The notes beneath the pieces were generated by a model. That model was not told the DNA's origin and searched no databases. It was given only the letters and a program-made list of their open reading frames with translations. From a virus, in IMG/VR virus record IMGVR_UViG_3300022925_002539, positions 37,580 to 101,579 of that record: a DNA stretch of 64,000 nt, one strand, 5' to 3'. Below, one piece after another: positions 472-62,617 of this stretch (the first letter of the stretch is position 1; each line of letters begins with the position of its first letter). Both the position numbers and the translations under genes were made by a program.

Positions 472-1053
472 ATGAAAAAGACGATAGTTGTAGATTGTGA
501 TGGAGTAATATGTAATTGGGAATATGCCTTTGATATTTTTATGGCAGAACTTGGATTTAAGAGAGTAAAAGATAGTAATTTAATTTACAACATTGGTGAA
601 AGATACGGTGTAGATAAAACACAAGGTAAGAAACTTATTAAACAGTTTAATGAAAGTGCAGCAATTGGTTACCTTCCTCCACTTAGAGATGCAGTACAAT
701 ATGTTACAAAGATGGCTGAAGAAGGTTGGGACTTTCATTGTGTTACAAGTTTGTCAACAAACAAATATGCACAGAAACTAAGGAAGATGAACTTAGCAAA
801 ACTTTTTGGAAAAGATACATTCAGTGTTGTAACTTGTATAGGCACTGGTGCAGATAAAGATGATGCACTTTCAGTTTACAAAGACAGTGGTTACTTTTGG
901 GTAGAAGATAAGCCTGAGAATTGTTTAGCAGGATTAAAGCAAGGAATGAAACCGTTGCTAATGGAGCATGGTTTTAATATGCATGATAAAGACTTTCCAT
1001 TAATGAAAAATTGGAAAGATATATACAACTATGTAAATAAGAACTTAGTATAA
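472..1053 (+). CDS. HAD-superfamily phosphatase, 5'(3')-deoxyribonucleotidase-like
   Basis: This 193-aa protein opens with the HAD motif I, VVDCDGVICNW, giving nucleophile D8 and acid/base D10. A later WVEDKPEN segment (D146) fits motif IV, which holds Mg2+. The size and motif I resemble NT5C-type 5'(3')-nucleotidases, which dephosphorylate deoxynucleoside monophosphates; the exact substrate is inferred. Start ATG lies 7 nt after GGAGAG. The gene has its own promoter and is followed 10 nt later by a small membrane protein gene. A role in nucleotide pool control during infection is likely. Confidence 0.75.
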   Translation: MKKTIVVDCDGVICNWEYAFDIFMAELGFKRVKDSNLIYNIGERYGVDKTQGKKLIKQFNESAAIGYLPPLRDAVQYVTKMAEEGWDFHCVTSLSTNKYAQKLRKMNLAKLFGKDTFSVVTCIGTGADKDDALSVYKDSGYFWVEDKPENCLAGLKQGMKPLLMEHGFNMHDKDFPLMKNWKDIYNYVNKNLV

Positions 1054-1063
1054 GGAATACATT

Positions 1064-1423
1064 ATGAACAAATTTATTGCAGACTGTTGGAATGCAGTGA
1101 TGAATGATAAACGTAATCCACTGGCTAATATTCCTGATCTAAACACTAGACACATGGTAATGCAGGTATTAGCATGGATGTGGTGTATTATTTTTTCAAT
1201 GAGTATAGGTAGTATTACAGTGTTTGCATACAGTGCAGTTGCTCATAGTCTACTGCTTGCAGGAATAGTAATCACAGTGGGCACGTTTGAATTAGCCAAA
1301 AGACGTCCTACATTCTTTTTAGATAAAAGGTACCATACACCTAGCAGAAGCAGAGGCTATATGTGGGTAAACGGTAAAAAAGTCATACTGGATAAAAATG
1401 ATCCAGGTGGCGAACACGAATAA
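1064..1423 (+). CDS. small two-helix membrane protein
   Basis: A 119-aa product with two adjacent hydrophobic segments at about residues 31-55 and 58-78, followed by a basic C-terminal tail (KRRPTFF, RYHTPSRSRGYMW) that should face the cytoplasm. The start codon follows AAGGAATACATT. No family is recognised. It lies in the same transcription unit as the HAD phosphatase and just before tRNA-Arg. Host membrane modification is possible, but nothing in the sequence shows it directly. Confidence 0.65.
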   Translation: MNKFIADCWNAVMNDKRNPLANIPDLNTRHMVMQVLAWMWCIIFSMSIGSITVFAYSAVAHSLLLAGIVITVGTFELAKRRPTFFLDKRYHTPSRSRGYMWVNGKKVILDKNDPGGEHE

Positions 1424-1429
1424 AATTTA

Positions 1430-1506
1430 GCACCAGTAGCTCAGCTGGATAGAGCATCGGTCTACGAAACCGAGGGTCGGAGGTTCGAATCCTTCCTGGT
1501 GCACCA
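1430..1506 (+). tRNA. tRNA-Arg (anticodon ACG)
   Basis: A complete 77-nt cloverleaf: acceptor GCACCAG/CTGGTGC, D stem GCTC/GAGC, anticodon stem TCGGT/ACCGA with loop CTACGAA (U33, anticodon ACG), T stem GGAGG/CCTTC with one G-U pair and loop TTCGAAT, and an encoded 3' CCA. ACG would be edited to ICG by host TadA and read CGU/CGC/CGA. CGT is a common Arg codon in the phage genes around it, so this tRNA may support phage codon use. Confidence 0.95.
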
Positions 1507-1513
1507 ATTTTTC

Positions 1514-2044
1514 TTATTCTAAAAACCCATTAGGTGCACGGAATAATGCTATTAAAGGACATGTAATAACAACACCATCATCGCCACCCCAAACGATAAT
1601 ATCATAAAAATCCCCAGAACTTTCGTTCCAGTCTGCAGGAATTTGATCTCCTGTAACATTAGTTGGTATAGTTCTTCCCTGAAAATTATCATAATTTGTA
1701 AAATCAGTAACTGTAACATCAGTTGTCCCATTATATGCTTTAAAAATTCCATCTGTGTCTTTAGTAATATATCTTATACCATTTATATGTACATTTCTAT
1801 CAGTATCTGAATCTACATAATAATCATTTACTAAAACTACTTTAATAGTACATGTCACACTTCCATCACTATTAGGATCAGGTAGTCCTGTAGCATCAAA
1901 AGAAACAATACTTGGTGTATCACGTGATTCAGCAGAAACTTCTGCTTCTGTTAATATTTGAGTATCATTTACGAAGACATTTATTTTAGCATTTTCGCTG
2001 CCTTCTTTATCTTGCCAACACCTTAGTGCAAATTTATAATCCAT
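1514..2044 (-). CDS. putative beta-rich carbohydrate-binding-like phage protein
   Basis: A 176-aa acidic protein with alternating beta-type segments. The opening lines (residues ~15-60: NAKINVFVND, then an acidic loop and a DATGLPDPNSDGS segment) resemble small xylan-binding-type CBM sandwiches found in phage tail-fibre and virion accessory proteins; this is a weak fold-level impression. The start ATG follows CCGGAGACTTAATTC, and a late-type promoter box lies upstream within the end of phoH. It is encoded convergently to tRNA-Arg, only 7 bp away. Two other small proteins, at 19517 and 25811, have a similar look. Confidence 0.55.
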   Translation of the reverse strand: MDYKFALRCWQDKEGSENAKINVFVNDTQILTEAEVSAESRDTPSIVSFDATGLPDPNSDGSVTCTIKVVLVNDYYVDSDTDRNVHINGIRYITKDTDGIFKAYNGTTDVTVTDFTNYDNFQGRTIPTNVTGDQIPADWNESSGDFYDIIVWGGDDGVVITCPLIALFRAPNGFLE

Positions 2045-2081
2045 GAATTAAGTCTCCGGTTTTAAAAATGTTATAACACCA

Positions 2082-2825
2082 TTATTTATCGCCGTAGATG
2101 TCTAAAACTTCTGCAACTGCAGGATGTCTTTCGATATCTTCGTGATCAAATTTACTTACAGATATATATTCACTGTCTAAATAAGCATCGTATAACTTTT
2201 GAAAATCTAATAAGCCATTTTCATACTCTTTACGATCTGTTTGTGCTATATCACCTGTAACAACCATTCTACTGTCATCACCTATACGAGTGAGTAACAT
2301 CTTCATTTGACTAGGTGTAGCATTTTGCATCTCGTCTGCGATAACAAATGCATTTTTAAATGTACGTCCTCTCATAAAAGCAAGTGGACTAACTTCTATT
2401 ATACCCTCTGTAATCATAGTTTGTATTTGTTTTGCAGTATAATATTCTCTTACTACATCAAATATAGGCTTTGTCCAGGGTTCCATTTTTGCATTTAAAT
2501 CGCCAGGTAAAAATCCGTGTTTTTCATCATCTACACCAACTGCAGGTCTCGTAATAATTAACCTATCTATAGTCTGCTCTTTTAGTGCTTTCACTGCCGC
2601 CAACACTGCTAACATTGTCTTACCTGTACCAGCAGGTCCTGTAGCAAATATAATTGTTTGCGTCGGATCTAATAGTTTTTGTATGTAATCTTTTTGATTT
2701 GGGTTGCGACCATGTATATGGACTTGTTTTTGTTTTTGTGCTTGTGGTAGGTAGTGAACGTTATTATTGATGTATTCAGCATGAGTTTCGTGTCTATGTC
2801 TCTGCTTACGGTTTTTTCTAGCCAT
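2082..2825 (-). CDS. phoH: PhoH-like P-loop ATPase
   Basis: This 247-aa protein carries a Walker A motif GPAGTGKT, a Walker B-type segment FVIADEMQN and the PhoH-typical TRPAVGVDDEKHGFLPGD block. PhoH proteins are cytoplasmic ATPases of the helicase-related P-loop class, very common in marine myoviruses; their exact role in infection is unsettled. The N-terminus is basic and His-rich (KNRKQRHRHETHAEY). The start codon follows AGGAGATAGCAAATAA on the minus strand. It forms the upstream member of a two-gene minus-strand unit and is divergent from the gene at 2982. Confidence 0.93.
   Translation of the reverse strand: MARKNRKQRHRHETHAEYINNNVHYLPQAQKQKQVHIHGRNPNQKDYIQKLLDPTQTIIFATGPAGTGKTMLAVLAAVKALKEQTIDRLIITRPAVGVDDEKHGFLPGDLNAKMEPWTKPIFDVVREYYTAKQIQTMITEGIIEVSPLAFMRGRTFKNAFVIADEMQNATPSQMKMLLTRIGDDSRMVVTGDIAQTDRKEYENGLLDFQKLYDAYLDSEYISVSKFDHEDIERHPAVAEVLDIYGDK
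2083..2090 (-). promoter_or_regulatory. T4-late-type promoter box GATAAATA
   Basis: On the minus strand GATAAATA occupies 2090-2083. With T4 late geometry (box -13 to -6) transcription would begin near 2077, giving a 33-nt leader with a GGAG ribosome site before the gene starting at 2044. The box overlaps the phoH stop codon. Confidence 0.45.
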
Positions 2826-2981
2826 TTATTTGCTATCTCCTGTTAATGTTATAGAGAAGCAAATTTTTTAATTGATTCATGAAGACTCTTGCCTCCCTTT
2901 CCTAACTGTATTTAAATCACACTATTAGTAGATATAATACCATATATTAGTTATATACGTATATAATGGATAAATAATTTT
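2826..2981. promoter_or_regulatory. divergent intergenic region between phoH and the gene at 2982
   Basis: 156 bp with no gene. It holds the phoH ribosome site (AGGAGA on the minus strand), a TATAAT at 2933-2938 without a clear -35, a TTTAAATA on the minus strand at 2916-2909, and GATAAATA at 2969-2976 next to the plus-strand start. Assignment of individual promoters is tentative. Confidence 0.4.
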
Positions 2982-2984
2982 ATG
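2971..2984 (+). promoter_or_regulatory. late-type box placed for a leaderless start
   Basis: TAAATA at 2971-2976, then 5 nt, then ATG at 2982. In T4 late promoters the box ends at -6, so +1 would be the A of the ATG. No convincing Shine-Dalgarno sequence precedes this start. The same spacing occurs at 13074 and 29642. Confidence 0.45.
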
Positions 2985-3515
2985 CTTCCAGAATTAATAT
3001 TTTTTACAGGTGTGCCAGGCAGTCGTTGGAGTGGTATTGCACAGGAGATCAAACAAGACCCAGCTTACGATACAACAGACAGAGCGCCACATAGAGTTTA
3101 TACACACAATAAATTCTCAGGACATCGAGATGCTTATTTTGGCACAGGCATGGAGTTTGATTGTAGTTTATTTGCAAGCAACCTATATGCACCTTTTTCA
3201 GGTACAGGTACTAAATTACTAATGAGTCATGAGTGGCCATATTATTTTTCAGAAATACAATATCAATATCCAGATGCTTGGATACAACTAATATATAGAG
3301 CAGACCAACCTAGTATGGATTGGTGGTTACAAGCCGGAGGTTTTACAATTACATATCCTAACTATGAATGGTATGAAAATATAGATACTATGTGGGAAAG
3401 AATATGTGAACAAAATCAACTTATACTTGACTTTGCTCAGAAACATAAGTTACAATGGAAACAACATCATAAACACAGTGATATTTTCATTACTACATAT
3501 AAAGGTAAACCATGA
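2982..3515 (+). CDS. P-loop sulfotransferase-like protein
   Basis: This 177-aa protein begins with LIFFTGVPGSRWSGIAQEI, a phosphate-binding-loop-like segment of the kind seen at the N-terminus of sulfotransferase-family proteins (5' PAPS-binding loop). The rest is rich in aromatic residues and has no clear second motif. It overlaps the following methyltransferase start by 4 bp. If a sulfotransferase, it would sulfate a glycan or small molecule; this remains inference. Its start lacks a ribosome site and sits 5 nt after a late-type box. Confidence 0.5.
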   Translation: MLPELIFFTGVPGSRWSGIAQEIKQDPAYDTTDRAPHRVYTHNKFSGHRDAYFGTGMEFDCSLFASNLYAPFSGTGTKLLMSHEWPYYFSEIQYQYPDAWIQLIYRADQPSMDWWLQAGGFTITYPNYEWYENIDTMWERICEQNQLILDFAQKHKLQWKQHHKHSDIFITTYKGKP

Positions 3516-4195
3516 ATCATAAAATCCTTAACAAACTAGAACAGATGATACACGTATCACCTCAACTTCTACGAAATCCAAATACCATGCGTCAAGCAAT
3601 ACAGGCCACATTTAATGTAACTGTAGAAGATGTTGAGTACGAAAACATTGGACAACTAGTAGATAGAATTGATGATAAAGTGTTGGGACATTATTTTGCC
3701 AATGTTTGGCAAGGAGAAATGTCAAAATACAAATACAGTGGTCCAGCACTAATAGATGAAATAAACAAACTGAAACCAAGACATGTTCTAGATATTGGAT
3801 GTGGATACCATGAGTTCAAAGGCAAGATAGACAATATTATAGGGATTGATCCATATAATGATCGTGCTGATTTACAAATCAAACTATTAGATTACTATCC
3901 AGAAGAACGTTTTGATGCAATACTAGCACTAGGAAGTATAAATTTTGGTAGTACAGATAAAATATTTGCTGAGCTAGAACATGCAGTGAGTTTGTGCAAT
4001 CCAGGTGCAGTACTATTCTTTAGAGCAAATCCAGGACTGCCACATGATAAAACAGAATCAAACTGGATTAGTTTTTATCCCTGGGACGCCAACTTTGTAG
4101 TAAATTGTGCTAATCAACTAGGTGTAGACATATTGGATCTACGTACAGACAGTCATAAAAATCGACTGTACTTCGTTTGGAGGACAAAACAGTAA
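3512..4195 (+). CDS. SAM-dependent methyltransferase
   Basis: A 227-aa protein. Residues ~92-100 contain HVLDIGCGY, the Rossmann-fold motif I that binds S-adenosylmethionine, followed by an acidic strand end (IIGIDPY) and RFDAILALGSINF as motif II/III. The substrate is unknown. An N-terminal helical region of about 80 residues precedes the domain. The start overlaps the previous gene by 4 bp and the stop overlaps the next start (TAATG), indicating translational coupling. Confidence 0.78.
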   Translation: MNHKILNKLEQMIHVSPQLLRNPNTMRQAIQATFNVTVEDVEYENIGQLVDRIDDKVLGHYFANVWQGEMSKYKYSGPALIDEINKLKPRHVLDIGCGYHEFKGKIDNIIGIDPYNDRADLQIKLLDYYPEERFDAILALGSINFGSTDKIFAELEHAVSLCNPGAVLFFRANPGLPHDKTESNWISFYPWDANFVVNCANQLGVDILDLRTDSHKNRLYFVWRTKQ

Positions 4196-4545
4196 TGAAG
4201 TGGGAAATATTCCAAAAGAAATATACAAACGTAGGCTTATCCCCAGATGATAGACTATGGGAATATGATGCAGATGGATCACAAATTTATCAACTAAAAT
4301 GTGGATTTGGGTTAAAAACACTATGGGACGGTGGTCGTGCTTATTGGGAAAAAGATTTTGCACAAAAATGGAAAGATGCAAATGAACTATACTTTGCAGT
4401 AAAAGGACAACTTATACCTGATAGTTGGAGCCAAAAAGACGTAGATAGAATGGTTGATAATTATACCGCAAGACTTTGGGGAAACTGTGAACGTTTACCT
4501 CGTACTTCAGAAAAGTTTGAATCTGTCTGGAAAGAACATAAATAA
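4195..4545 (+). CDS. hypothetical protein, 116 aa
   Basis: The ATG at 4195 is chosen over an in-frame TTG at 4177 because GGAGG (4179-4183) lies 11 nt upstream and the ATG overlaps the preceding stop as TAATG. The product is soluble and Trp-rich (nine Trp in 116 residues), with DDRLWEYDADGSQIYQLKCG near its N-terminus. I do not recognise a family. It is the last gene before the tctA leader, and its final codons form part of a late-type promoter box. Confidence 0.65.
   Translation: MKWEIFQKKYTNVGLSPDDRLWEYDADGSQIYQLKCGFGLKTLWDGGRAYWEKDFAQKWKDANELYFAVKGQLIPDSWSQKDVDRMVDNYTARLWGNCERLPRTSEKFESVWKEHK
4538..4545 (+). promoter_or_regulatory. late-type promoter box CATAAATA for the tct operon
   Basis: CATAAATA at 4538-4545 includes the stop codon of the preceding gene. 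T4 late geometry predicts transcription starting near 4551, immediately before the first paired element (4553) of the structured tctA leader. The coincidence of predicted start and RNA structure supports both calls. Confidence 0.5.
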
Positions 4546-4550
4546 AAACA

Positions 4551-4643
4551 TACTACAACTAACGCTCGAATGTAAAGAAGTTCAGTTGTAGACTCCCGGA
4601 AATTTTTAAGGCACATTCGCATGTATGCGACTGTGGATTCTCT
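4551..4643 (+). promoter_or_regulatory. structured 5' leader of tctA with pseudoknot and competing hairpin
   Basis: About 93 nt. CTACAACT (4553-4560) pairs with AGTTGTAG (4584-4591). The loop between them carries CGAATGT (4567-4573), fully complementary to ACATTCG (4613-4619) downstream, which makes an H-type pseudoknot. The downstream strand also belongs to a competing hairpin: TCGCA-TGTA-TGCGA (4617-4630) flanked by CACA (4612-4615) and TGTG (4632-4635). That longer hairpin would tie up the weak GGA ribosome site at 4635-4637, six nt before the tctA ATG. This is the layout of a translational riboswitch or similar element; the ligand is unknown and no known class is matched with confidence. 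Confidence 0.6.
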
Positions 4644-6074
4644 ATGATTGAAATGATTACAGCTTTAATGGCTGGCGTACTATATGGATTACTAATAGGC
4701 ATAATACCTAGTGCAGGTGCTACTACAGGTTTGGTTGCACTGTTTGGTTTTATCAGTTACTTTGTTCATGAACCATATTTAGGTGTAGTATTCTTAATGG
4801 CAGTGGTTGCTGCTAGTACCACAGGCGATAGTTTTACTTCAATATTGTTAGGAATACCAGGAGCAAACAGTGCCGCTGCTACTATGGTAGATGGCTTTCC
4901 ACTTGCACAACAAGGCAGAGCAAGTTATGCAATCAGTGCCGCCGTTACCACTTCAACAGTAAATGGTTTAATTTGGGGTTGTTTAGTGTTCTTATTATTA
5001 CCTTGGTATACAAACTTATTGATGATTATTGGTGTACCTGAACTTTGGGCATTTACTGTACTTGCACTAGCAACAGTTGGATTTATAAGTACAAAATTTT
5101 GGTTCCGTAGTTTGTGTGCAATTTGTATTGGTATATTTTTAGGCATGGTAGGAGTTAACCCAGAAACAAATGAGCCACGTTTTACTGGTAGTTGGTTTTA
5201 TTTAGAAGATGGTATACAACTTATGCCAGTAGTTGCAGGACTATTTGCTATTCCAGAATTAATTAAAGGACTGTTCAATAGAACTAAGACTGCCACTATT
5301 GTAAAAAGCGAATTAACAGAAGGTGTCAAAGAATTTTGGCGTAATCGTTGGTTAGGACTACGAGGCGGTTTTATTGGTGCTTTTATAGGTTTACTGCCTG
5401 GACTAGGAGGTGCTATGGCAGATTGGATGGCATACGGAAGTGCAGTCGCTAGTAATCCAAATGAACGTTTTGGTAACGGCAATATTAAAGGTGTTATAGG
5501 ACCAGAAGGTGCTAATAATGCACAGAAAGCAACAAGTATGATTCCAACAGTTTTATTTGGTATACCAGGTGCACCGTTTGCGGCAGTTTTAATGAGTTTG
5601 TTTATGTATCTAAATTTTGAATTAGGCACACCAGATTTAGCCTACGACACAGAATTTTTTACAAGTATGACATTTGGCTTTTTAAGTGCAACAGTTATAG
5701 TTGCAATATTGTGTATATTTTTAATAAAGCCAATTAGTTATATTACCAGTGTCCCTTACAAATATTATTTTCCTATTTTACTAGCAGTAATTGTATGGAG
5801 TAGTATGCAGTATACAGGAGGCTGGGAAGATTTTGTAATGTTAGCTGTATTTTCCTGCATAGGATTTGTTTGCAGACATTACAAATTTAGTAGACCTGCT
5901 CTACTAATAGGATTTATATTATCCGAAAAAATAGAAAAACTTTCCATACAGATGTTTGCTTTGTATGACATTGAAAGTTTAATTACAAGACCGATATTTA
6001 TGGTATTAGTTATTTTTATTATAGGTATCTTTGCATATAGTTTTATAAAGAAAGGAAAAATCGATTATGCGTAA
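4644..6074 (+). CDS. tctA: TctA-family large membrane subunit of a tripartite tricarboxylate transporter
   Basis: This 476-aa, strongly hydrophobic protein has the TctA hallmarks: GLLIGIIPSAGATTG near the N-terminus, a TTGDSFTSILLGIPG segment, and an internal repeat of this (GLLPGLGGAMADWM and VLFGIPGAPFAA) in the second half, as in the two-fold TctA architecture. About ten or more membrane segments are visible. TctA forms the sodium- or proton-coupled channel for carboxylates delivered by a periplasmic TctC protein. The family is usually about 500 aa, so it appears full length. tctC overlaps its end by 8 bp. A phage copy would be an auxiliary metabolic gene. Confidence 0.93.
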   Translation: MIEMITALMAGVLYGLLIGIIPSAGATTGLVALFGFISYFVHEPYLGVVFLMAVVAASTTGDSFTSILLGIPGANSAAATMVDGFPLAQQGRASYAISAAVTTSTVNGLIWGCLVFLLLPWYTNLLMIIGVPELWAFTVLALATVGFISTKFWFRSLCAICIGIFLGMVGVNPETNEPRFTGSWFYLEDGIQLMPVVAGLFAIPELIKGLFNRTKTATIVKSELTEGVKEFWRNRWLGLRGGFIGAFIGLLPGLGGAMADWMAYGSAVASNPNERFGNGNIKGVIGPEGANNAQKATSMIPTVLFGIPGAPFAAVLMSLFMYLNFELGTPDLAYDTEFFTSMTFGFLSATVIVAILCIFLIKPISYITSVPYKYYFPILLAVIVWSSMQYTGGWEDFVMLAVFSCIGFVCRHYKFSRPALLIGFILSEKIEKLSIQMFALYDIESLITRPIFMVLVIFIIGIFAYSFIKKGKIDYA

Positions 6075-7128
6075 ATTTTTAATTGCATTATTTTTAATGC
6101 TTAGTACACCAGCACTTGCTGATTATACAATGATAGTACCACAAAAGCCAGGAGGAGGTACAAGTGTGTGGGCACAGATCGTGGCTACAGAAATGGAAAA
6201 ATATTTAGATGAAAAGATTGTTATCAAACACATTAGAGGTGCTAGAGACATTCCTGGATTCAACAAGTTTCACAATGAACTCCAAAATGATCCAAAAACA
6301 ATAATGGTATCTCATGGTGGTAATGGTGTAAGTTTCTTAAACGAAAAGGTAGATTACAACTATGCCGACTATGAAAGTGTAGGATTAATGAATCTAAATA
6401 TTATTGTTGCATCACGTAAGGATCATAATCCATACGGTGGAAAGAAAACTGCTTTTGCTGCTGGTAGTGGAATGATTCCAGAAGGCATTGCAATGACATT
6501 ACTAAAGTGTGGAGCAGGACTTACTACAGAACAATACATTGACTGTTTCAAACGTAAAGTAAACTGGGTAAAAGGTATGTCAGGTGGCGAAAGACGTTTA
6601 GCATTTAAACGTGGCGAACTAGACGGTACTAGAGAAAATCCAGCTGCTTTTAAAAAACATGTTCAACCTACTATTGAACAAGGCGTTGCAGGATTATGGT
6701 TTCACCATGGGATACTACAAGCAGATGGTTCACATGCTGATGATCCAAATTATCCAGGATATCAAATGGAGCAATTATTCTATGCAGCAAATAGAACAAA
6801 ACCAGAAGGTGATTTATATGCCGCCTATAAACTTGTAAAAAGTTTCCGTGATGGTATGCAAAAAGCACTATGGGTTGGAAAAGGAAATCCAAATAAAGCG
6901 AAACTAATCGCAGCATTAAAACAAGTTGCTACAAATCCTGAAAGTGTCAGTGCAGTAGAAAAGAAAGTTGGCAAGTATCAATGGCTAATTGGCAATGCCG
7001 GTGATGCTCATAGAGATACACTGATGAAACTTATTACACCTGAAGCATTAAGTACACTTGTGAAGTTTAATAACGAAGCATTTGGAATTAAAGCTGTGTA
7101 TAAGGATACATTACTTGCCCAAAAATAA
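6067..7128 (+). CDS. tctC: TctC-family periplasmic substrate-binding protein
   Basis: 353 aa. An N-terminal signal peptide (basic MRKF, hydrophobic core, AxA-type cleavage at ALA-DY) sends it to the periplasm. The opening of the mature protein, MIVPQKPGGGTSVWAQIVATEME, matches the Bug/TctC P[NQ]xPGGGxD-type ligand loop with GGGTS. The body is the two-lobed binding-protein type. It should present a carboxylate to TctA. The ligand cannot be read from sequence. Translationally coupled to tctA, and its end overlaps a small membrane protein gene. Confidence 0.88.
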   Translation: MRKFLIALFLMLSTPALADYTMIVPQKPGGGTSVWAQIVATEMEKYLDEKIVIKHIRGARDIPGFNKFHNELQNDPKTIMVSHGGNGVSFLNEKVDYNYADYESVGLMNLNIIVASRKDHNPYGGKKTAFAAGSGMIPEGIAMTLLKCGAGLTTEQYIDCFKRKVNWVKGMSGGERRLAFKRGELDGTRENPAAFKKHVQPTIEQGVAGLWFHHGILQADGSHADDPNYPGYQMEQLFYAANRTKPEGDLYAAYKLVKSFRDGMQKALWVGKGNPNKAKLIAALKQVATNPESVSAVEKKVGKYQWLIGNAGDAHRDTLMKLITPEALSTLVKFNNEAFGIKAVYKDTLLAQK

Positions 7129-28680: not shown

Positions 28681-29523
28681 ATGACGCAACTAATAGAACC
28701 AAGTAAATTTACAGACACAGTAGGCCTTTTAAGGTCCTTTTTTTTGGACAAAGGATTTTTAGAAGTACATACACAAAACAGACTAAGCATACTAGCTGCA
28801 TGTGAAGATCCATTTAATGTAGCAACATACAATTACGCAGGCCAAGTATGGCCACTACCACAAACAGGCCAAATGTGGTTAGAACATGAATTATTAAGTA
28901 AGCCCGATAGTAAGGGCTTTTTTTGTGTGTCCACTAGTTACAGACAAGAGCCAAATGCTATACCAGGCAGACACGACATTATCTTTCCAATGTTTGAATT
29001 TGAAATGCCAGGAGACATAAATGACCTTAAGAAGATGGAATACGAATTATGTGAATACTTAGGCTTTCCAGCAATAACAGAAAAGACATATGCTGATTGG
29101 CAAAAATATTATGGACTTGCTAGTGATTATGAAATGACTGCTGAAGAAGAAACGAAAATGTACAACGAGTTTGGTGCCACTATGATAACAGACTTTCCAG
29201 AAATGACATCACCATTTTGGAACATGAGCAGATATCCAGGTGAAACCGAAAGTAAAAAGATTGATGTTATACTTGGTGGTATGGAAACAATAGGTAGTGC
29301 AGAACGTAGTACAGATGTAGACATGATGAGAGATACATTTCATACTATTACAGATGGTGCTTATAGTAACTTACTTTACAAACTGTTTGGCAAAGATAGA
29401 GTAGAAGCAGAACTGGAAGAGTTCTTAAAGTTTGACTTCTTTCCAAGAGTTGGTGGAGGAATAGGCATGACAAGAATGATTGCGGCTTTAGAAAAACATA
29501 ATGCACTAGCAAAGGCGGCTTAG
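28681..29523 (+). CDS. class II aminoacyl-tRNA-synthetase-like (AsxRS/AsnA-type) catalytic domain
   Basis: 280 aa from ATG 28681, which has AAAGGA upstream. Motif 2 (STSYRQEPNAIPGRH, R88 and E90) and motif 3 (GGGIGMTRMIAAL, R265) are intact, as in Asp/Asn/Lys-type class II synthetases. There is no N-terminal OB-fold anticodon-binding domain; that absence is the mark of the archaeal AsnA-type asparagine synthetase and other synthetase paralogues. So it may make free asparagine, charge an unusual RNA, or do something else. It is followed 7 nt downstream by an atypical tRNA. Two terminator-like hairpins lie inside its coding sequence. Confidence 0.8.
   Translation: MTQLIEPSKFTDTVGLLRSFFLDKGFLEVHTQNRLSILAACEDPFNVATYNYAGQVWPLPQTGQMWLEHELLSKPDSKGFFCVSTSYRQEPNAIPGRHDIIFPMFEFEMPGDINDLKKMEYELCEYLGFPAITEKTYADWQKYYGLASDYEMTAEEETKMYNEFGATMITDFPEMTSPFWNMSRYPGETESKKIDVILGGMETIGSAERSTDVDMMRDTFHTITDGAYSNLLYKLFGKDRVEAELEEFLKFDFFPRVGGGIGMTRMIAALEKHNALAKAA
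28723..28745 (+). terminator. intragenic terminator-like hairpin 1
   Basis: GGCCTT (28723-28728), TT loop and AAGGTC(C) (28731-28737), with one G-U pair, then T8 at 28738-28745. It lies at codons 15-22 of the synthetase-like gene, on the sense strand. The 2-nt loop means only five or four pairs would actually form. Confidence 0.4.
28900..28924 (+). terminator. intragenic terminator-like hairpin 2
   Basis: AAGCCC (28900-28905), 8-nt loop, GGGCTT (28914-28919), running into T7 (28918-28924). This is the canonical form of an intrinsic terminator, in the sense direction inside the coding sequence (codons about 74-82). It may cause premature termination unless translation or antitermination masks it. 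Confidence 0.5.
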
Positions 29524-29530
29524 TTTATAA

Positions 29531-29631
29531 TCTGGGGTGATGAAATCGGTAGACATGCACGACCGTTTATCGTGTGTTAAATGTACTGCAATATATTTAG
29601 CGTGTAGGTTCGAGTCCTACCCCCAGAGCCA
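29531..29631 (+). tRNA. atypical tRNA with long variable arm (anticodon reads GTT if loop is taken literally)
   Basis: 101 nt. Acceptor TCTGGGG/CCCCAGA (7 pairs), discriminator G, CCA encoded, T arm GTAGG-TTCGAGT-CCTAC. The D arm (ATG-AAATCGGTAGA-CAT) is of tRNA-Leu type. Anticodon stem CACGA/TCGTG encloses CCGTTTA, so position 33 is C instead of the near-universal U and 37 is T; the anticodon would be GTT (Asn). A 29-nt variable region can form a 7-bp stem (GTTAAAT/ATTTAGC). U1-A72, C2-G71 and G73 match tRNA-Asn; the long arm does not. Decoding ability is uncertain. Confidence 0.7.
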
Positions 29632-29639
29632 AACTGCAA

Positions 29640-29655
29640 TATAAATAGAGTTATG
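29640..29655 (+). promoter_or_regulatory. late promoter TATAAATA placed for a leaderless start
   Basis: An exact TATAAATA at 29640-29647, then 5 nt, then ATG at 29653. There is no ribosome site. T4 geometry would put +1 on the A of the ATG. Confidence 0.5.
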
Positions 29656-30717
29656 TACGCAGTTTATCAACATTGGGATCCACTAGAAGTATGTGTCGTT
29701 GGCAAAGCGTATCCTCCAGAATTTTATAGTTGGATTAAAGATATAGATACACGTAAAAAGTTTGAGCAAGTAGCATTAGAAACAGAAGAAGATTTTCAAA
29801 AATTAATAAAGTTACTGGTTCAATTTGATGTTGAAGTATTACGTCCAACTATACCTGACACATTTGAAAATTGCATGGTTGATAATATATGGGTACCTCC
29901 ACCAGTTACTCCAAGAGACTATTTTATTCAAATACATGATAAATGTTGGGTACCAGTAGTTCCAAATGCTAACCATGCACATAATGCTTTCAAAAAACAA
30001 AAGCAAAAAACATGGGCTCAGTTTCAATTGCATGACCAAAAGAAGCATAATAGAAAATTAGATTTTTATAAAGACATTTTTAAAAAATGCAATGTCAAAC
30101 CTACAGACTGTAGTTATATTTCTGGATGCTTTGTAAGTAGACTTGGAAACGATTTATTTTTTGCAACACAAAGTATATATGACGACTGGACTGCAATCCA
30201 AAAAAACGTAAATGAATTATTTCCTAATACAAATAATCATATAGTTGATGCACAAGGACACGGTGATGCAGTATATTGTCCTGTTGCTCCTGGATTAATT
30301 ATTAGTATTGCTAACGAAGACTATAAAGATAGTTTTCCTAATTGGGAAGTTGTGCATTTACCTGAAAGTCACTATGCCGCACATAAAATGTTTCAAGCAA
30401 GTATGAAACTGAATGCAGGCAAATGGTATATTCCTGGCTTTGATGAAAATCCTCTTATTACAGAAACTGTAGATAGTTATATGAATGATTGGATAGGTGA
30501 AGTAAGTGAAACAGTATTTGGTGTTAACATTTTAATTATTAATCCTACAAATGTAGTTCTTGCTGAATATAATAAACAAGCAGTTGATGCGTTAACTCGT
30601 CATGGCATAACTGCACATATTTCACCTTTTAGACACAAGTATTTTTGGGACGCCGGAATACACTGTGTTACAAACGATTTAAGTAGGCGAGGTTCATGCC
30701 AACGATACCATTTTTAG
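29653..30717 (+). CDS. amidinotransferase-family enzyme
   Basis: 354 aa. It has the amidinotransferase/agmatine-deiminase-type beta-propeller features: an N-terminal WDPLEVCVVGKAYPP strand, a central GHGDAVYCPV with catalytic His region, and the C-terminal nucleophile Cys C338 in WDAGIHCVTNDL. Such enzymes move an amidino group from arginine to an amine (for example glycine). A second family member, 290 aa, lies at 46052. Acts in the cytoplasm. Overlaps the following radical SAM gene by 22 bp. Confidence 0.82.
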   Translation: MYAVYQHWDPLEVCVVGKAYPPEFYSWIKDIDTRKKFEQVALETEEDFQKLIKLLVQFDVEVLRPTIPDTFENCMVDNIWVPPPVTPRDYFIQIHDKCWVPVVPNANHAHNAFKKQKQKTWAQFQLHDQKKHNRKLDFYKDIFKKCNVKPTDCSYISGCFVSRLGNDLFFATQSIYDDWTAIQKNVNELFPNTNNHIVDAQGHGDAVYCPVAPGLIISIANEDYKDSFPNWEVVHLPESHYAAHKMFQASMKLNAGKWYIPGFDENPLITETVDSYMNDWIGEVSETVFGVNILIINPTNVVLAEYNKQAVDALTRHGITAHISPFRHKYFWDAGIHCVTNDLSRRGSCQRYHF

Positions 30718-37360: not shown

Positions 37361-38842
37361 ATGACTGATCTCCCAACTAACCTAACAGAACTACAAAAAG
37401 ACTATGCAGTATTTTTACCTGCTCTTAGTAGTTTCTATGTAAATGTAACAGGCAAAATAAAACATACTGCAGGCACAAATGAACCAAGTGTCCTTCCTGA
37501 ACGTATACCTAAGCCTATTAGTGCAGATGTACGAGAACTTGACTACTTAAAACCTAATGCACTCTGGCACTATAAGTGGAGTCTACATAGTGCAGGTCAT
37601 GCTAGTTTAGATATAGAAAAAGACTTACCTCGTGAATATATGTATCGTCATCGTGATAAAACAAGTAGTTTTATGCTAGGTGATAGTGGTGGATTCCAGA
37701 TTGGTAAAGGCAAGTGGCCAGGTGATTGGAAGGCAAATAGTGGATGTCCACAAGCACAAAAGAAACGTGAAAGTGTACTGAAGTGGATGGACGAATATAT
37801 GGATTATGGAATGATCCTAGATGTTCCTGCTTGGTTAAGTCGTGAACCGGAAGGTGCAAAGGCGGCTCAGATTAGTTCATATCAAGAGGCAGTAGATGGA
37901 ACTGCATTTAACAATGAATACTTTGTAAACAATCGTAATGGAAATTGTAAGTTCTTAAACGTATTACAAGGTGAAAACCATGCACAAGCCGATGATTGGT
38001 ATAATGCAATGAAAAGGTTTAGTGATCCTAAAATTTATCCTGATGCACATTTTGAAGGTTATGGTATGGGTGGACAAAATGCATGTGATGTACATCTTAT
38101 ATTAAAAAGAATAGTAACCTTAATGCACGATGGTTTACTTGAAAAAGGTAAACATGATTGGATGCATGTTTTAGGAACAGGAAAACTTGAATGGGCTGGT
38201 GTACTGACTGCTATACAACGAGGTGTCCGTAAATTATATAATGAAAATTTTACTGTAAGTTTTGACTGTGCAAGTCCTTTTCTTGCAACAAGTAATGGAC
38301 AACAATATACACATTATCGTATGCCACACAATGGCAAGTGGAAATACATGATGGAAGATGCACCTGATGATAAAAACATGAGTAACAGTATACAAAGTTA
38401 TGATGAATATTGTGAAAGTATATATGATAAATGGATACCTAGTCCTATAACTGAACTAATGAAAGTTAAGGATATTTGTGTCTATGCACCTGGTGATCTT
38501 AACAAAATTGGTAAAGAGGGTAAAACAAGTTGGGATACATTCAGTTATGCACTTCTAATGAATCATAATATGTACTTACACATACGCAGTGTACAGGAAA
38601 CAAATAGACTATATGATGAAGGTCAGTATCCTAAAGAACTAGTTGATGATAACTTTGATCGTACTGAAGTAAAAGATGTAATTGCACACTTGTTTACAAT
38701 GGATGATCGCGACAAACAAAATAAACTAATAGAAGATCATAGTCGACTATGGATGAAAGTTATAGGAAGTCGTGGTGCAACTGGTAAAAGAACAGTAAAT
38801 GCAAGTACACAATTTGCAAGTTTATTCGAGGAAGTTAGTTGA
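37361..38842 (+). CDS. dpdA: DpdA-like DNA-guanine transglycosylase
   Basis: 493 aa. It has the tRNA-guanine-transglycosylase fold marks: DSGGFQ (D108, base-binding Asp), then VLQGENHAQAD and HVLGTGKLEWA, and FDCASP (D302, the nucleophile position). The TGT zinc-binding Cys set is absent. DpdA enzymes exchange guanine in DNA for a 7-deazaguanine, protecting phage DNA from restriction. Product identity depends on the precursor; see folE, queD and queE in this window. Encoded directly after the clamp with no gap. Confidence 0.85.
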   Translation: MTDLPTNLTELQKDYAVFLPALSSFYVNVTGKIKHTAGTNEPSVLPERIPKPISADVRELDYLKPNALWHYKWSLHSAGHASLDIEKDLPREYMYRHRDKTSSFMLGDSGGFQIGKGKWPGDWKANSGCPQAQKKRESVLKWMDEYMDYGMILDVPAWLSREPEGAKAAQISSYQEAVDGTAFNNEYFVNNRNGNCKFLNVLQGENHAQADDWYNAMKRFSDPKIYPDAHFEGYGMGGQNACDVHLILKRIVTLMHDGLLEKGKHDWMHVLGTGKLEWAGVLTAIQRGVRKLYNENFTVSFDCASPFLATSNGQQYTHYRMPHNGKWKYMMEDAPDDKNMSNSIQSYDEYCESIYDKWIPSPITELMKVKDICVYAPGDLNKIGKEGKTSWDTFSYALLMNHNMYLHIRSVQETNRLYDEGQYPKELVDDNFDRTEVKDVIAHLFTMDDRDKQNKLIEDHSRLWMKVIGSRGATGKRTVNASTQFASLFEEVS

Positions 38843-45327: not shown

Positions 45328-45371
45328 AGTGACAGGTCTTAATGACACACCACTATAACTCGGAGAAAAAT

Positions 45372-46052
45372 ATGATAAGTGATATAATTAAGAAAAAACT
45401 AAAAAATGCCAATATAAGATATTGGGCAGGTGATAACATTAGTAGTGTACTCAACGAAGGTGATAAAGAAGCACTTATTGAAGAGCTTACTCCCAAGTTT
45501 GAATCAGTGTTAGATAGTTTAGTAATTGATAGACACAATGATCCTAATAGCATGGGAACTGGTAGACGTTTAGCAAAGATGTACGTTAATGAACTAATGT
45601 CTGGACGTTATAACCCTATGCCTAATGCAACTGCATTTCCCAATGATAGTATAGATAGATATGATGGCATGTTAGTAGTAAGAAGTGAACTTAAAAGTAT
45701 GTGTTCACATCATCACCAGCCAGTAACAGGTGTTGCATATATTGGAATAATAGCTGCTGAAAAACTTATTGGGCTTAGTAAATATACCCGTATTGCACAA
45801 TGGTGTGCTAGACGTGGCACACTACAGGAAGAACTTAACAATGTTATTGCTAATGAAATACAACGGGCAACACAGAGTGAACATGTAGGAGTTTATATAC
45901 AAGCAACTCATGGTTGTTGTGAAAACAGAGGTATTGGTGCCCATAGTAGTTTAACTCAAACAACTGTATTACGTGGTGCATTTAGTGATAATCCTAGTAC
46001 TAAAAAAGAGTTTATGGATAATATAAAACTACAACAAGAATTTGCCTGTTAA
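45372..46052 (+). CDS. folE: GTP cyclohydrolase I
   Basis: 226 aa from ATG 45372, preferred over ATG 45342 because CGGAG (45360-45364) sits 7 nt before it. It has the FolE marks: CSHHHQPVTG (zinc Cys/His), IGLSKYTRIAQW and THGCCENRGI (second zinc Cys). FolE turns GTP into dihydroneopterin triphosphate, the first step of the 7-deazaguanine pathway (and folate). Follows a sigma70-like promoter. With queD- and queE-like genes at 62156 it would feed DpdA. Confidence 0.92.
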   Translation: MISDIIKKKLKNANIRYWAGDNISSVLNEGDKEALIEELTPKFESVLDSLVIDRHNDPNSMGTGRRLAKMYVNELMSGRYNPMPNATAFPNDSIDRYDGMLVVRSELKSMCSHHHQPVTGVAYIGIIAAEKLIGLSKYTRIAQWCARRGTLQEELNNVIANEIQRATQSEHVGVYIQATHGCCENRGIGAHSSLTQTTVLRGAFSDNPSTKKEFMDNIKLQQEFAC

Positions 46053-46924
46053 TGATATCTACTAATAATGAATGGGACACATTAAAAAGTATATTTGTTG
46101 GTTCAGCATGGGGAGCAAATAAACCTCAAGGGTGCCATTTTGAAAAGACAGGTCCCTATCCTAGCATTGTGACTGCACAAGCAGATTTTGATTTAAATAA
46201 ATTGATTAATATACTACAGCAAGAAGGCGTACAAGTACATCGTCCAAAAAAGCATAGTTTTGTACCACACGGTATGTACAACTATTGTCCACGTGATAGA
46301 TTGCTCATTATTGGCAATACTGTAATAGATTGCAATATGCAATATTCTTGTAGGCAAGAAGAAATAAACTATATGCCTGAGGTAACAAAACATGGTGTAA
46401 TTAGTGTTCCTAGGGACGAAGGAATATTTTTTGATGCAGCAAACGTTTGTAGGTTAAATAACACTTTACTATACTTAATAAGTCCAAGTGGAAATGCAGA
46501 AGGTGCAAAATGGTTACAAAAACAATTTCCAAATCATGTTGTAGAAACTACTGAAACTTATAGTGGTATTCACATAGATAGTACCTTTGTTCCAGTAAGA
46601 AATGGACTAGTTGTAGTAAATAAGGACAGAGTATCAAGTAAGACACTTCCAAAGTGTTTTAAAGATTGGGACGTAATCTGGTTAGGTAAAGATGATTTAA
46701 AACAAAAAAGTTTTGTAGGCGAAGCATTTGCCAGTAATTACATACTATTAAATTTTTTAATGGTAAATCCAAAACTTGCAGTAATAGATGATTGTCCTAG
46801 ACTAGAAGAAGAATTAACAAAACATGGAGTAGTATGCATTACTGTTCCATTTAAACACAGTAGAACACTTGGTGGAGGTCACCATTGTGTTACACTTGAT
46901 TTGATAAGAGAGCCTAATGAGTGA
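46052..46924 (+). CDS. amidinotransferase-family enzyme
   Basis: 290 aa. It has the amidinotransferase family features: WDTLKSIFVGSAWG at the start, a central IPR-type DEGIFFDAANV segment and nucleophile Cys C279 in GGGHHCVTLD. Shorter than the 354-aa copy at 29653. Likely transfers the amidino group of arginine to an amine. Starts one nt overlapping folE. Confidence 0.82.
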   Translation: MISTNNEWDTLKSIFVGSAWGANKPQGCHFEKTGPYPSIVTAQADFDLNKLINILQQEGVQVHRPKKHSFVPHGMYNYCPRDRLLIIGNTVIDCNMQYSCRQEEINYMPEVTKHGVISVPRDEGIFFDAANVCRLNNTLLYLISPSGNAEGAKWLQKQFPNHVVETTETYSGIHIDSTFVPVRNGLVVVNKDRVSSKTLPKCFKDWDVIWLGKDDLKQKSFVGEAFASNYILLNFLMVNPKLAVIDDCPRLEEELTKHGVVCITVPFKHSRTLGGGHHCVTLDLIREPNE

Positions 46925-53467: not shown

Positions 53468-53848
53468 ATGGATTTATTTCAAGAATATGATTATGTAGGA
53501 CATGCAGGCGGTAAACTTACATGGAAAATAGAGTGTGATGCATTAAGCAATGCTGAATGGGAAGTTCTTGCAAACTTAATATTACACTATGAACGCAGAC
53601 CTTTTAGAGTTGCAGTTGGTATTCCAACAGGTGCTACACTATTAGGTGATATACTTAACAAACATGCAACAGGTCAACCACAACATCCTGTGCTTGTAGT
53701 TGACGATGTATATACTACAGGAACTAGTTTTAAAGAATTTAAAGAAGCAAACTACAAAGATGAACATGTAATACAATGGGTATGCTTTGCACGTAAACCA
53801 ACCACACATGATGTAAATGCACTTTTTACTATGCCTGCAGAGGTTTAA
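53468..53848 (+). CDS. phosphoribosyltransferase, orotate-PRTase-like
   Basis: 126 aa. The PRPP-binding motif LVVDDVYTTGTSF is present, with PTGATLLGDIL before it. Shorter than true OPRT (about 210 aa), so it keeps mainly the catalytic core. It makes a nucleotide from a base and PRPP; the base is unknown. One of three PRTases in the window (54437 and 60214). Confidence 0.72.
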   Translation: MDLFQEYDYVGHAGGKLTWKIECDALSNAEWEVLANLILHYERRPFRVAVGIPTGATLLGDILNKHATGQPQHPVLVVDDVYTTGTSFKEFKEANYKDEHVIQWVCFARKPTTHDVNALFTMPAEV

Positions 53849-55467: not shown

Positions 55468-58400
55468 ATGAAAACAAAAGCATTAACAGGGTTAGCATTA
55501 GTCACTGCACTTTCTGCATGTGGAGGCGGTGGCGGCGGTGGAGGAACAAGTTTCACTCCAATCAAAGTAAGCGATTTAGGCAGTATTAACACTGCCGCCA
55601 TTAGTAACGGATTTGCAAGTGCTATACAAAAGATAGCAGGAGATGGATTAGTAGATGCTAAAGAAAGTTTAGAAATCTTTAAATGGGTAGATACTAACGA
55701 AAATATCAACACTACAGAATTAGCAAAATATAATGTTACTGTAAATGGCACAAAGATGTCTTTACAACGAGCATGGTTTATGCTGAAAGGCTACAAAGCA
55801 CTTTACTATGATGGTAAAGAAACCTTTTGGGAAAATATGATTGAAAATGAGCAGTATGATGATACTGATAGTACTTTTGTAGAACTTAAGGCACTTGCAG
55901 AAAAAGACGATCCTGATTATGCTGAAAAGATTGGTAAAGGTACAAAATCTGTAGAAGAATTCAAAAAGGAAAAAAGTGTTGTAACCCTAGTCAGTACATC
56001 AACAAGTACTATTACCACAGATAGTGATCCAGTTGTTGGTGAACCTACTGTAACTACTACATATGTTGATAGTAGTGCAGATACATTATTAGATGATGGC
56101 AGAACTAAAACTGAAGTCACTAGAACTTATACACATACTAGTAAAACTCCTAGTACAATAACTACCACTACTTATACATTGTATACCTATACTTATAGCA
56201 ATGGTACTACAAATGAAGTAAAAGGACCTGAAACGAAAACCCCTAACACAACTTATACAACTACAATAAGTACAGAAGAAAAAATAATAAGCACTAGTTA
56301 CACAGAACCAGCAGTTGTAGAAACTGATAGATCAGAAAGTTTTGATGTTAGTACAAAAGAAGAAACTAAAATTGTAGTGAGTGATCCTGTAGTTACTACT
56401 ACATATAGTGATGCAGAGGATAGTGGTGTTGCACAGGATAATGGTGATACATTATACACTACTACAAGAACATACACAGATAAATCGGTTGTTACTACTA
56501 CAACTACTATAACAAAAACAGAAACAAGTATTAGAAAAGTTACTATAAAATATAGTGATGGCACAACAGAAGTTGTTACTGACGATCCAGTAATAACTGT
56601 AACTCCTGTTACTACTAGTGAAGATACTGTAACAACAAGTACTAGAACAGAATTATTAAGCACTAGAACAGAGTCTGGTGTTATAGAAAGTGAATCTATA
56701 GTATATAGTGTTTCTTCTTATGAGGAAGATCCTGTTGTTATTGTTAATGATCCAGTCGTTACTACAACATACGTAGACACAGAAGATGCTGGTGTATTAC
56801 AGGATAATGGTGATAAGTTATTTACAACTACAAGAACTTATACAGACACAAGTACAACAAAAACTGAAACAACAATAACAACTGTACAAACAAGTATACC
56901 TACTAAAACTATTAAGTTTACAAATGGAAAAATTAAAAAAGTTGTAGGTGATCCAATAATAACAAAAAGTTCAGAAACAACAGTAAGTATAAGTGATCCA
57001 GTCATTACTACAAGAACAGAAGTGTTATCTACTAGGACTGTAGAAAAGTCAATTACAAAAACTACTGAAGAAAAAATAAAGACTGTTAGTGATCCTGTAA
57101 TAGGAGATTCTATTACTACATCTACATATGTAGATAATACTGAAGAAACTAATTTAGATGATGGTCGAACTAAAATTGTAGTTACACGAACTTACACTTA
57201 TACAACTAAGGTTCCTAGTACAATTACTACTACAGAATACATAAAATATACTAACACATATAGCGATGGTAGTGTAGTAATAGTAGATGGACCAAAGACA
57301 GTTACGCCTGTTACTACGTACACAGAATCAAGTAGTACAGAAGATAAGGTTATTAGTACTAGTTATATTGAAGCGACTGTAATAGATACTGTAGAAACAT
57401 ATGACATCAGCACTAGCAAAGACACAACTAGTATAGACGGTGATCCTGTAGTTACTACAACATACGTAGATGAAGAAGATGCTGGTGTATTACAGGATAA
57501 TGGTGACACCATATTTACTACTACAAGGACATACACAGATAAAACAACAGTTACTACTAGTACAACTATTACTACTACAGAAACTAGTGTGAAGACTACT
57601 GTAATAAAATATGCAAATGGTGCAACAAAAACAGTAATAGATGACCCAGTAATTACTGTGACACCTGTCACTACAACTAAAGATACTGTAACTACAAGCA
57701 CTAGAACAGAAGTAATTAGTACTAGAACAGTAGAAGCAGTTGTTGAACCTAGTGAGCCTACAGTAATTAGTACAAATACTTTTGTAGATAATTTAGTTTA
57801 TAGTCATTTAGATAAAACATATGGACCTGAAACTACAACTTCAGAAGACATAGTTACTTACAGTGGCAGTATAAAAACTACAACTAGACGTACTACTACT
57901 TGTATTGTAGAATATCATGAACATTTTGATAAACGTGAAACTATTACAAGGACAAAATACAGTGATGGCACACAAAAAGATGTTGTGGATAGCACAGAGT
58001 ATTTTACAAGAGGAAAAGTAAACAAAGGCGAAACTTGTAACAGTGAAGATACAGTTATAAGTGTTGAGAATACTGATGACGGTGTAATAGGTGATGACCA
58101 TGCTGATATGGGAACTAGAACACCTGGATACAACAGTGATGCAAGTTCATATATTACAGATGAATTCAATTACATTAACAACAAACAACTCAGTGCTAGT
58201 AACTTTAATGTTGCATATAGTAGAGGTTGGACTGGTAAAGGTAGTTTAGTCACTATTGCAGATACTGGTGCTAATGTAAATCATACAGATTTAGATGATA
58301 ATATAAAATATACTATAGATTATTCAGACACAAACGTAAGTGATAGTAGTTCGCACGGTACACACGTTGCAGGTATCGCTGGTGCAGAGAAGAACAGTTC

Positions 58401-62155: not shown

Positions 62156-62617
62156 ATGGCTTTTTATAGCACAAAAACATATGGACACAATATTGGACTT
62201 AGTGCAGTATTCAGACAACCTAATGCAGATCATTCACATTGTCAATTACTACATGGTTATAGTTTAGGATTTAAATTTACATTTGGTTGTAATGAACTAG
62301 ATAATAAAAACTGGGCAGTTGACTTTGGAGGCTTAAAGCCTTTGAAAGCATGGTTAGAAGAACAGTTTGATCATAAAGTCGTAATTGATAGTCAAGATCC
62401 ACATATGGAAGACTTTTACGAATTAGAGAAAAAAGGTTTATGTGAAGTAACAATGATGGATGGCGTTGGTGCAGAAATGTTTGCAAAACATGCATTTGAA
62501 TTTGCAGATGCCTTAATTAAAAAACAAACACAAGGAAGGTGTTTTGTTTATGAAGTAGAATGTAGTGAACATGGAGCAAATAGTGCAATTTATAGGATCG
62601 AAGATGCTAACAGTTAA
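62156..62617 (+). CDS. queD: QueD-like 6-carboxytetrahydropterin synthase (altered metal site)
   Basis: 153 aa. Landmarks: HCQLLHGYSLGFKF, AVDFGGLKPLKAWL and FDHKVVIDS match the PTPS/QueD T-fold. Catalytic Cys C29 and H33 are present. However, two of the three canonical zinc His are changed: the first (usually in a F-x2-x-H-R motif) aligns with F19, and the second of HGH is Tyr (Y35). So the enzyme may use another metal arrangement or be a specialised relative. Starts behind a consensus promoter, overlaps queE start by 14 bp. Confidence 0.78.
   Translation: MAFYSTKTYGHNIGLSAVFRQPNADHSHCQLLHGYSLGFKFTFGCNELDNKNWAVDFGGLKPLKAWLEEQFDHKVVIDSQDPHMEDFYELEKKGLCEVTMMDGVGAEMFAKHAFEFADALIKKQTQGRCFVYEVECSEHGANSAIYRIEDANS

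Follow-up and report, generated by a model that had tools for sequence, protein, structure and literature searches.

A phage synthetase-like enzyme and its adjacent type II tRNA: a co-inherited unit with a possible role in pyrimidine synthesis

Introduction

A 101.6-kb viral record (IMGVR_UViG_3300022925_002539) contains a gene encoding a small synthetase-like protein, followed after only 7 nt by a tRNA gene of atypical form. Both lie within the stretch of 64,000 nt analyzed in this study (bases 37580-101579 of the record), which is referred to below as the window. Their arrangement raises the question of whether the enzyme and the tRNA serve translation or a different process. The original prediction, made from the nucleotide sequence, was that the pair may form a self-contained aminoacylation system, for example one supplying an aminoacyl donor outside translation, or alternatively that the protein is an asparagine synthetase of the AsnA type and the tRNA is degenerate. 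The two features are as follows:

28681..29523, + strand: AsnRS-type class II catalytic core of 280 aa, without an anticodon-binding domain (profiles, alignment, AF2 model)
29531..29631, + strand: type II tRNA with an encoded CCA end (sequence parse, covariance model, alignment)

Characterization of the enzyme

The product of the 280-aa ORF matches the Pfam family tRNA-synt_2 (5.2e-17) and phrog_29758 (1.5e-130). The Pfam match is confined to the catalytic domain of class II Asp/Asn/Lys synthetases, and neither the alignment with full-length AsnRS, AspRS and LysRS nor the AF2 model (pLDDT 92 across 280 residues) contains an N-terminal OB anticodon-binding domain, so that the predicted class II core lacking this domain was borne out by all three approaches. 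The best structural matches of the model are AspRS and AsnRS structures (1x54, TM 0.78).

The enzyme carries the features expected of an AsnRS, i.e. class II motifs 2 and 3 and an Asn-type pocket. Residues R88, E90 and H98 of motif 2, and R209 and R265 of motif 3, are invariant in the enzyme family, as is E68 (83/83 members), the pocket Glu that follows the SGQ/TGQ loop; AsnRS shares this Glu, whereas AspRS has a Lys nearby. The likeness to class IIb AsnRS (1x54, 2xgt) thus comprises the catalytic fold, both motifs and the Asn-type Glu. In contrast to AsnRS, the phage enzyme has neither the OB domain nor the C-terminal PFPR tail, shows approx. 19% identity, and belongs to a family whose phage and cellular members are associated with a type II tRNA or with genes of pyrimidine synthesis. 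Its score against the NCBIfam asnS equivalog (20.3 bits) is below the cut-off of 342.6 bits. The best explanation, which we hold jointly with the pyrimidine role discussed below and with slightly less than even confidence, is that the family descended from an AsnRS-like catalytic core.

Two kinds of asparagine synthetase were considered. AsnA aspartate-ammonia ligase is also a free-standing class II core with Asp/Asn chemistry; since no match to AsnA models or structures was found in Pfam, NCBIfam or PDB searches, the predicted AsnA identity was rejected. The archaeal enzyme AS-AR (3p8t, 1nnh), which forms asparagine from aspartate and ammonia, resembles the phage protein in being an AsnRS-derived core without an anticodon-binding domain, and it gave a weak profile match (24.4 bits, 1.5e-4). 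If the phage enzyme were of this kind, the tRNA would be a neighbour that uses its product. However, full AsnRS structures scored far higher in the same family-profile search (52.7 bits), the gene context differs, and AS-AR has no known tRNA partner. We judge this identity improbable, and return to it with the cellular genomes.

Structure and conservation of the tRNA

The body of the tRNA spans positions 29531-29628 and its CCA end 29629-29631, with the anticodon GUU at 29565-29567 and the discriminator G73 at 29628. The 5′ part folds as TCTGGGG TG ATG AAATCGGTAGA CAT G CACGA CCGTTTA TCGTG, and the 3′ part, which follows a 29-nt variable arm (29575-29603), as GTAGG TTCGAGT CCTAC CCCCAGA G CCA. 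This tRNA has a Leu-type D arm, the pairs U1-A72 and C2-G71, and the anticodon loop CCGTTTA, with C33 and U37. The predicted parse (U1-A72, C2-G71, G73, GUU, C33, U37 and the 29-nt variable region) proved right in every detail checked.

ARAGORN and Rfam did not call the window copy of the tRNA; several relatives with U33 are called tRNA-Asn(gtt) by ARAGORN or a tRNA by ARAGORN/Rfam. The proposed covariance-model check was positive: a model built from relatives recovered the window copy with 96.3 bits (E 4e-19), this copy being itself among the 27 training sequences. Minimum-energy folding of the lone sequence failed to reproduce the complete cloverleaf, which often happens with individual tRNAs, and the cloverleaf presented here comes from the alignment. 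Among the 27 aligned tRNAs, 99.5% of cells are paired, 15 of the 23 pairs have changes on both sides, and compensatory double changes occur in 105 cells, compared with 22 in shuffles. The structure of the tRNA is therefore under selection. The view that it is a degenerate tRNA beside an unrelated AsnA-type gene, which could draw on C33 and on the failure of ARAGORN and Rfam to detect the window copy, is refuted by this covariation, by the invariant identity bases and by the linkage described below (113/113 cases), and its probability is virtually nil.

The comparison was extended to 117 distinct tRNAs of this type. GUU, G73 and U1-A72 are invariant (117/117), and the length of the variable arm ranges from 11 to 37 nt. 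U33 is present in 114 tRNAs, C33 in two (only the close clade of the window) and G33 in one. Position 37 is occupied by U (94 tRNAs), A (17) or C (6), and never by G; the U37 of the window tRNA is thus the family norm. A pyrimidine at this position distinguishes 100 of the 117 pair tRNAs and only 1 of 74 other phage tRNAs (Fisher 7e-35). In these other tRNAs, which come from the same viral loci, position 33 is U in 74/74 and position 37 a purine in 73/74 cases. We also observed that the long variable arms (29575-29603 in the window, and those of many relatives) share a motif, GTACTGCAATATATTTA or GCAAA.TATTTA, even though the tRNAs otherwise differ widely, which is more conservation than stem pairing demands.

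The identity of tRNA-Asn is determined by the anticodon and G73, and GatCAB requires U1-A72 (PMC9976931, PMC4206432). All 117 tRNAs have the GUU and G73 of a canonical decoding tRNA-Asn together with the U1-A72 of a GatCAB substrate, but not the purine 37 and short variable region. The constant part is therefore what a charging route reads, and the drifting part is what decoding and t6A37 need. The anticodon loop is atypical for decoding. The earlier doubt about normal decoding accords with pyrimidine 37; C33 is private to one clade. The suggestion of an aminoacyl donor outside translation fits this atypical loop.

Since the enzyme has no anticodon-binding domain, GUU must be read by something else, either a host synthetase or the ribosome; the retention of U33 in 114/117 tRNAs keeps the ribosome among the candidate readers. 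The tRNA carries the exact identity bases used by the ND-AspRS and GatCAB transamidosome (anticodon, G73, U1-A72), and differs from the tRNA of that system in its type II body, its pyrimidine 37 and its tie to another enzyme.

The loop changes at positions 33, 37 and 38, combined with a foreign tRNA body, could also mark a counter-defence tRNA, i.e. a substitute for tRNA-Asn that evades a host anticodon nuclease and is charged by the dedicated enzyme. Changes in phage tRNA loops have a precedent (PMC10264068). However, the anticodon is unchanged in 117/117 tRNAs, no association with nuclease genes was seen, and the pyrimidine genes and cellular relatives described below would be left unexplained, which makes a counter-defence role very unlikely.

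Linkage of the enzyme and the tRNA

A search with the enzyme protein identified at least 599 viral loci, 80 of which were examined for the tRNA; in nearly all of these the same tRNA is located just 3′ of the enzyme gene. The reverse scan searched for type II tRNAs with GUU by a DNA pattern, independently of the enzyme, and yielded 120 matches. The enzyme gene lies directly upstream on the same strand, at a distance of ≤235 bp, in 113 of them, and the remaining seven are at contig ends, where just 10-119 bp precede the tRNA. The enzyme and the tRNA are thus a strict co-inherited unit (113/113 testable cases). The pair is also present in the isolated cyanophages P-SSM2, P-SSM5 and P-SSM7; in P-SSM2 and P-SSM7 the enzyme gene has been listed just as a tRNA ligase, T4-GC 194 (PMC3037559). 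In our literature search, which covered few subscription papers, the pair was nowhere described as a unit.

The expected co-occurrence in related phages holds with few exceptions. The enzyme is found without the tRNA only in cellular relatives, in huge phages and in a handful of phage loci (L053, L055/L058, L090-L092). In the 187-kb record containing L055/L058, neither the covariance model nor ARAGORN found the tRNA anywhere. The 187-kb phage record G042, which has the enzyme and no such tRNA, gave no pyrD/E/F match, a point against a pyrimidine role. Two huge phages, whose enzymes show 44-48% identity, also lack the pair tRNA; the tRNAs at their inspected loci are tRNA-Leu and one of ordinary length for tRNA-Asn. 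On a Pacearchaeota MAG contig (L090, positions 4866-4885), only an acceptor-stem remnant follows the enzyme gene (TCCGGGG T C CCCCGGA GCCA). It keeps U1-A72 and GCCA and has no D, anticodon, variable or T arms, which may mean that part of the tRNA was deleted, that the assembly collapsed here or that an acceptor minihelix is encoded. Several related marine phages carry tmRNA genes detected by ARAGORN (L017, L025, L055/L058, L065), that of L055 being an alpha_tmRNA in Rfam (122 bits).

The strict one-to-one linkage is what would be expected of a minimal orthogonal AsnRS-tRNA pair dedicated to translation, in which the enzyme would charge its own type II tRNA via the acceptor and variable arms, and the tRNA would read AAC/AAU, making the phage independent of Asn charging by the host. 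This is the main rival to a role in pyrimidine synthesis. The AsnRS-type pocket and fold, the invariant GUU, U33 in 114/117 tRNAs and the ARAGORN assignment to tRNA-Asn also speak for it. On the other hand, an enzyme without an anticodon domain implies that GUU is kept for another reader; the pyrimidine 37 of 100/117 tRNAs is incompatible with t6A37 and alien to tRNAs that decode; the phage pair is itself associated with pyrD/E/F; and the closest cellular relatives adjoin pyrimidine genes without any such tRNA. We therefore regard a translation pair as unlikely. The predicted self-contained aminoacylation system holds insofar as the unit is real and strict; charging of the tRNA by the enzyme itself is not supported, the invariant bases being the set read by host AspRS/AsnRS and GatCAB.

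Pyrimidine genes adjacent to the phage pairs

A gene of the pyrD, pyrE or pyrF type was found in the flanks of 24 of 160 distinct phage loci, many of which are short contigs. All 13 pyrimidine-gene matches located <500 bp from a pair are on the same strand (13/13), and their density is 6.5-fold that found beyond this distance. These neighbours include (i) DHODH (L008, L010, L088, L093, L358, L369), (ii) PyrE (L276, L277, L288, L333, L361) and (iii) a small phosphoribosyltransferase (many loci); Pfam and NCBIfam confirmed DHODH, PyrE, OMPDC and Prs beside phage pairs. A reciprocal scan with the phage DHODH returned two contigs only, a number too small to be informative. One viral contig (L348, positions 1013-7116, - strand) carries a near-complete pyrimidine cassette, composed of genes for PRPP synthetase, OMP decarboxylase, a PEP-carboxykinase-like protein, a small phosphoribosyltransferase, the enzyme and the tRNA.

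The window itself contains a candidate gene of this kind:

53468..53848, + strand: small phosphoribosyltransferase, OPRT-like, 126 aa (context of homologues, AF2 model)

The encoded protein belongs to the same family as that of the cellular operon described below, and its AF2 model matches orotate phosphoribosyltransferases best. Its homologues adjoin the pair in other phages, and in cells the enzyme homologue together with pyrF/pyrD. No match to it was found among the INPHARED phages.

Among the cyanophages of INPHARED, in which a T4-type capsid gene is present in 387 Synechococcus-phage and 61 "Cyanophage" records, PyrE is encoded only by P-SSM2, P-SSM5 and P-SSM7. These are precisely the three that have the pair, and they represent two lineages, not three. 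Cyanophage pyrE is already known (PMC9983427), without its tie to the enzyme-tRNA pair.

Cellular relatives

A genome scan detected the enzyme family, at 48-64% identity, in CPR bacteria, Dependentiae, Chlamydiae, nanoarchaea, Midichloriaceae and Pasteurella atlantica. Five matches carry the tRNA (L087, L088, L089, L093, L137) and look like phage contigs in MAGs; the other cellular relatives have no such tRNA at the enzyme gene. Across 25 whole carrier genomes, the exact type II GUU pattern did not occur; the many covariance-model matches in carriers were counted irrespective of anticodon. In a tree of 83 family members and six AsnRS, whose deep forks lack resolution, the tRNA-linked forms constitute two phage groups among tRNA-less cellular forms, and the linkage label requires 5 changes, compared with 19 in shuffles.

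The fetched flanks of 18 of 72 cellular loci contain a gene of the pyrD, pyrE or pyrF type, which in 11 cases is close and on the same strand. In P. atlantica, genes for OMP decarboxylase and the small phosphoribosyltransferase follow the enzyme homologue, and one for DHO dehydrogenase adjoins it. In 41 carrier genomes, proteins above cut-off were PyrB (2), CarB (2), multifunctional-type PyrC (1) and DHODH (18), while PyrB and CarB were above cut-off in 14/14 control genomes. The frequency of PyrB in carriers (2/41) is lower than in Patescibacteria at large (62/287, 22%; P 0.003). Since PyrB is rare in Patescibacteria anyway, its absence from carriers is suggestive and not proof. A dimer-type PyrC-like gene occurs near one cellular homologue (L140), a neighbour that would agree better with a carbamoyl product than with dihydroorotate.

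The presence of AsnRS, AsnB and GatB in the carrier genomes is mixed, and the enzyme as a simple replacement for AsnRS or AsnB in cells was not borne out. The finding that 8 of 12 carriers with a full AsnRS have no AsnB over cut-off would agree with an AS-AR-like activity. However, such an activity leaves unexplained the pyrimidine context, the missing CarB and PyrB, and the strict linkage to the tRNA.

In summary, a role in the pyrimidine pathway is well supported, and the enzyme family probably has such a role. That the phage enzyme-tRNA unit as a whole acts in pyrimidine synthesis rather than decoding is our best overall explanation, albeit one to which we give somewhat under an even chance.

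A possible reaction and the role of the tRNA

In terms of pathway position, gene context would place the enzyme where CarAB, PyrB and PyrC act, with its product feeding PyrD, PyrE and PyrF. Its fold is unrelated to theirs, and most carriers of the enzyme lack CarB and PyrB. Dihydroorotate corresponds to asparagine cyclized through a single bicarbonate-derived carbon, the alpha nitrogen becoming N1 and the amide nitrogen N3. The reaction we favour over others would form dihydroorotate from asparagine, bicarbonate and ATP. The amino group of Asn would be carboxylated and the carbamate adenylated in the class II site, and the side-chain amide nitrogen would close the ring. Dethiobiotin synthetase activates a carbamate; by analogy, activation of the N-carboxy form is conceivable in a class II site that accommodates Asn and ATP. 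We infer this chemistry tentatively, and consider it conceivable rather than likely. The phage and cellular enzymes most likely share their chemistry, whatever it is, given approx. 60% identity and an unchanged active site.

A role of the tRNA as a host-charged carrier of Asn is equally tentative. Host AsnRS, or AspRS with GatCAB, would read GUU, G73 and U1-A72 and produce Asn-tRNA from the phage tRNA, and the type II body would mark this Asn-tRNA for the phage enzyme, away from ordinary decoding. Where the host makes Asn on tRNA only, such a dedicated tRNA, with its Asn identity, would safeguard the supply of substrate. A role of the tRNA in catalysis is called into question mainly by the acidity of the phage enzymes (mean net charge -19, compared with -9 for the cellular relatives), which does not favour tRNA binding, and the absence of a special tRNA in cells: cellular relatives with approx. 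60% identity do without it, so the core reaction may need no tRNA.

The full scheme would be a tRNA-dependent pyrimidine route in ocean phages, in which Asn on the host-charged phage tRNA, bicarbonate and ATP yield dihydroorotate. It would take the place of carbamoyl-phosphate synthetase, aspartate carbamoyltransferase and dihydroorotase, and many reduced genomes of bacteria and archaea would use it with no special tRNA. Taken with all its parts, this scheme is unlikely to be correct. The same literature search, with its limited coverage of subscription papers, revealed no published alternative route to dihydroorotate.

Other features of the window

Several further genes were noted. A 7-deazaguanine pathway is probably encoded, perhaps serving DNA modification; its candidate genes (37361-38842, 45342-46052, 62156-62617, 62565-63551) comprise GTP cyclohydrolase I and a QueD-type gene, both recognized by Pfam, and TGT/DpdA-like and QueE-like genes assigned by eye. 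Two proteins were judged by eye to be amidinotransferase-like, with no Pfam match (29653-30717, directly after the tRNA, and 46052-46924); a protein resembling them, also by eye, is encoded approx. 1.2-0.3 kb upstream of the enzyme homologue in L140. Membrane or periplasmic transporter-like genes in this T4-like phage (4644-7128, 47137-48204) appear by eye to be of the tricarboxylate-transport and basic-membrane-protein types. A 1525-aa protein (55468-60045) has, by eye, a long region of Thr-rich repeats, then a subtilase-like domain, and ends in an autotransporter-like part.

Conclusions

Pyrimidine synthesis is held, to our knowledge, to begin identically in all life, with CarAB, PyrB and PyrC. 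If the proposed reaction is true, a 280-aa replacement for these enzymes would amount to a novel route used by ocean phages, CPR bacteria and symbionts. One small gene in place of carAB, pyrB and pyrC would suit phages and reduced genomes, and would explain the retention of PyrD, PyrE and PyrF in genomes without CarB and PyrB. A tRNA linked to a metabolic enzyme would, if confirmed, represent a new role for tRNA. Should the pair serve translation instead, it would be a natural phage-encoded orthogonal synthetase-tRNA pair, directly useful for genetic code work.
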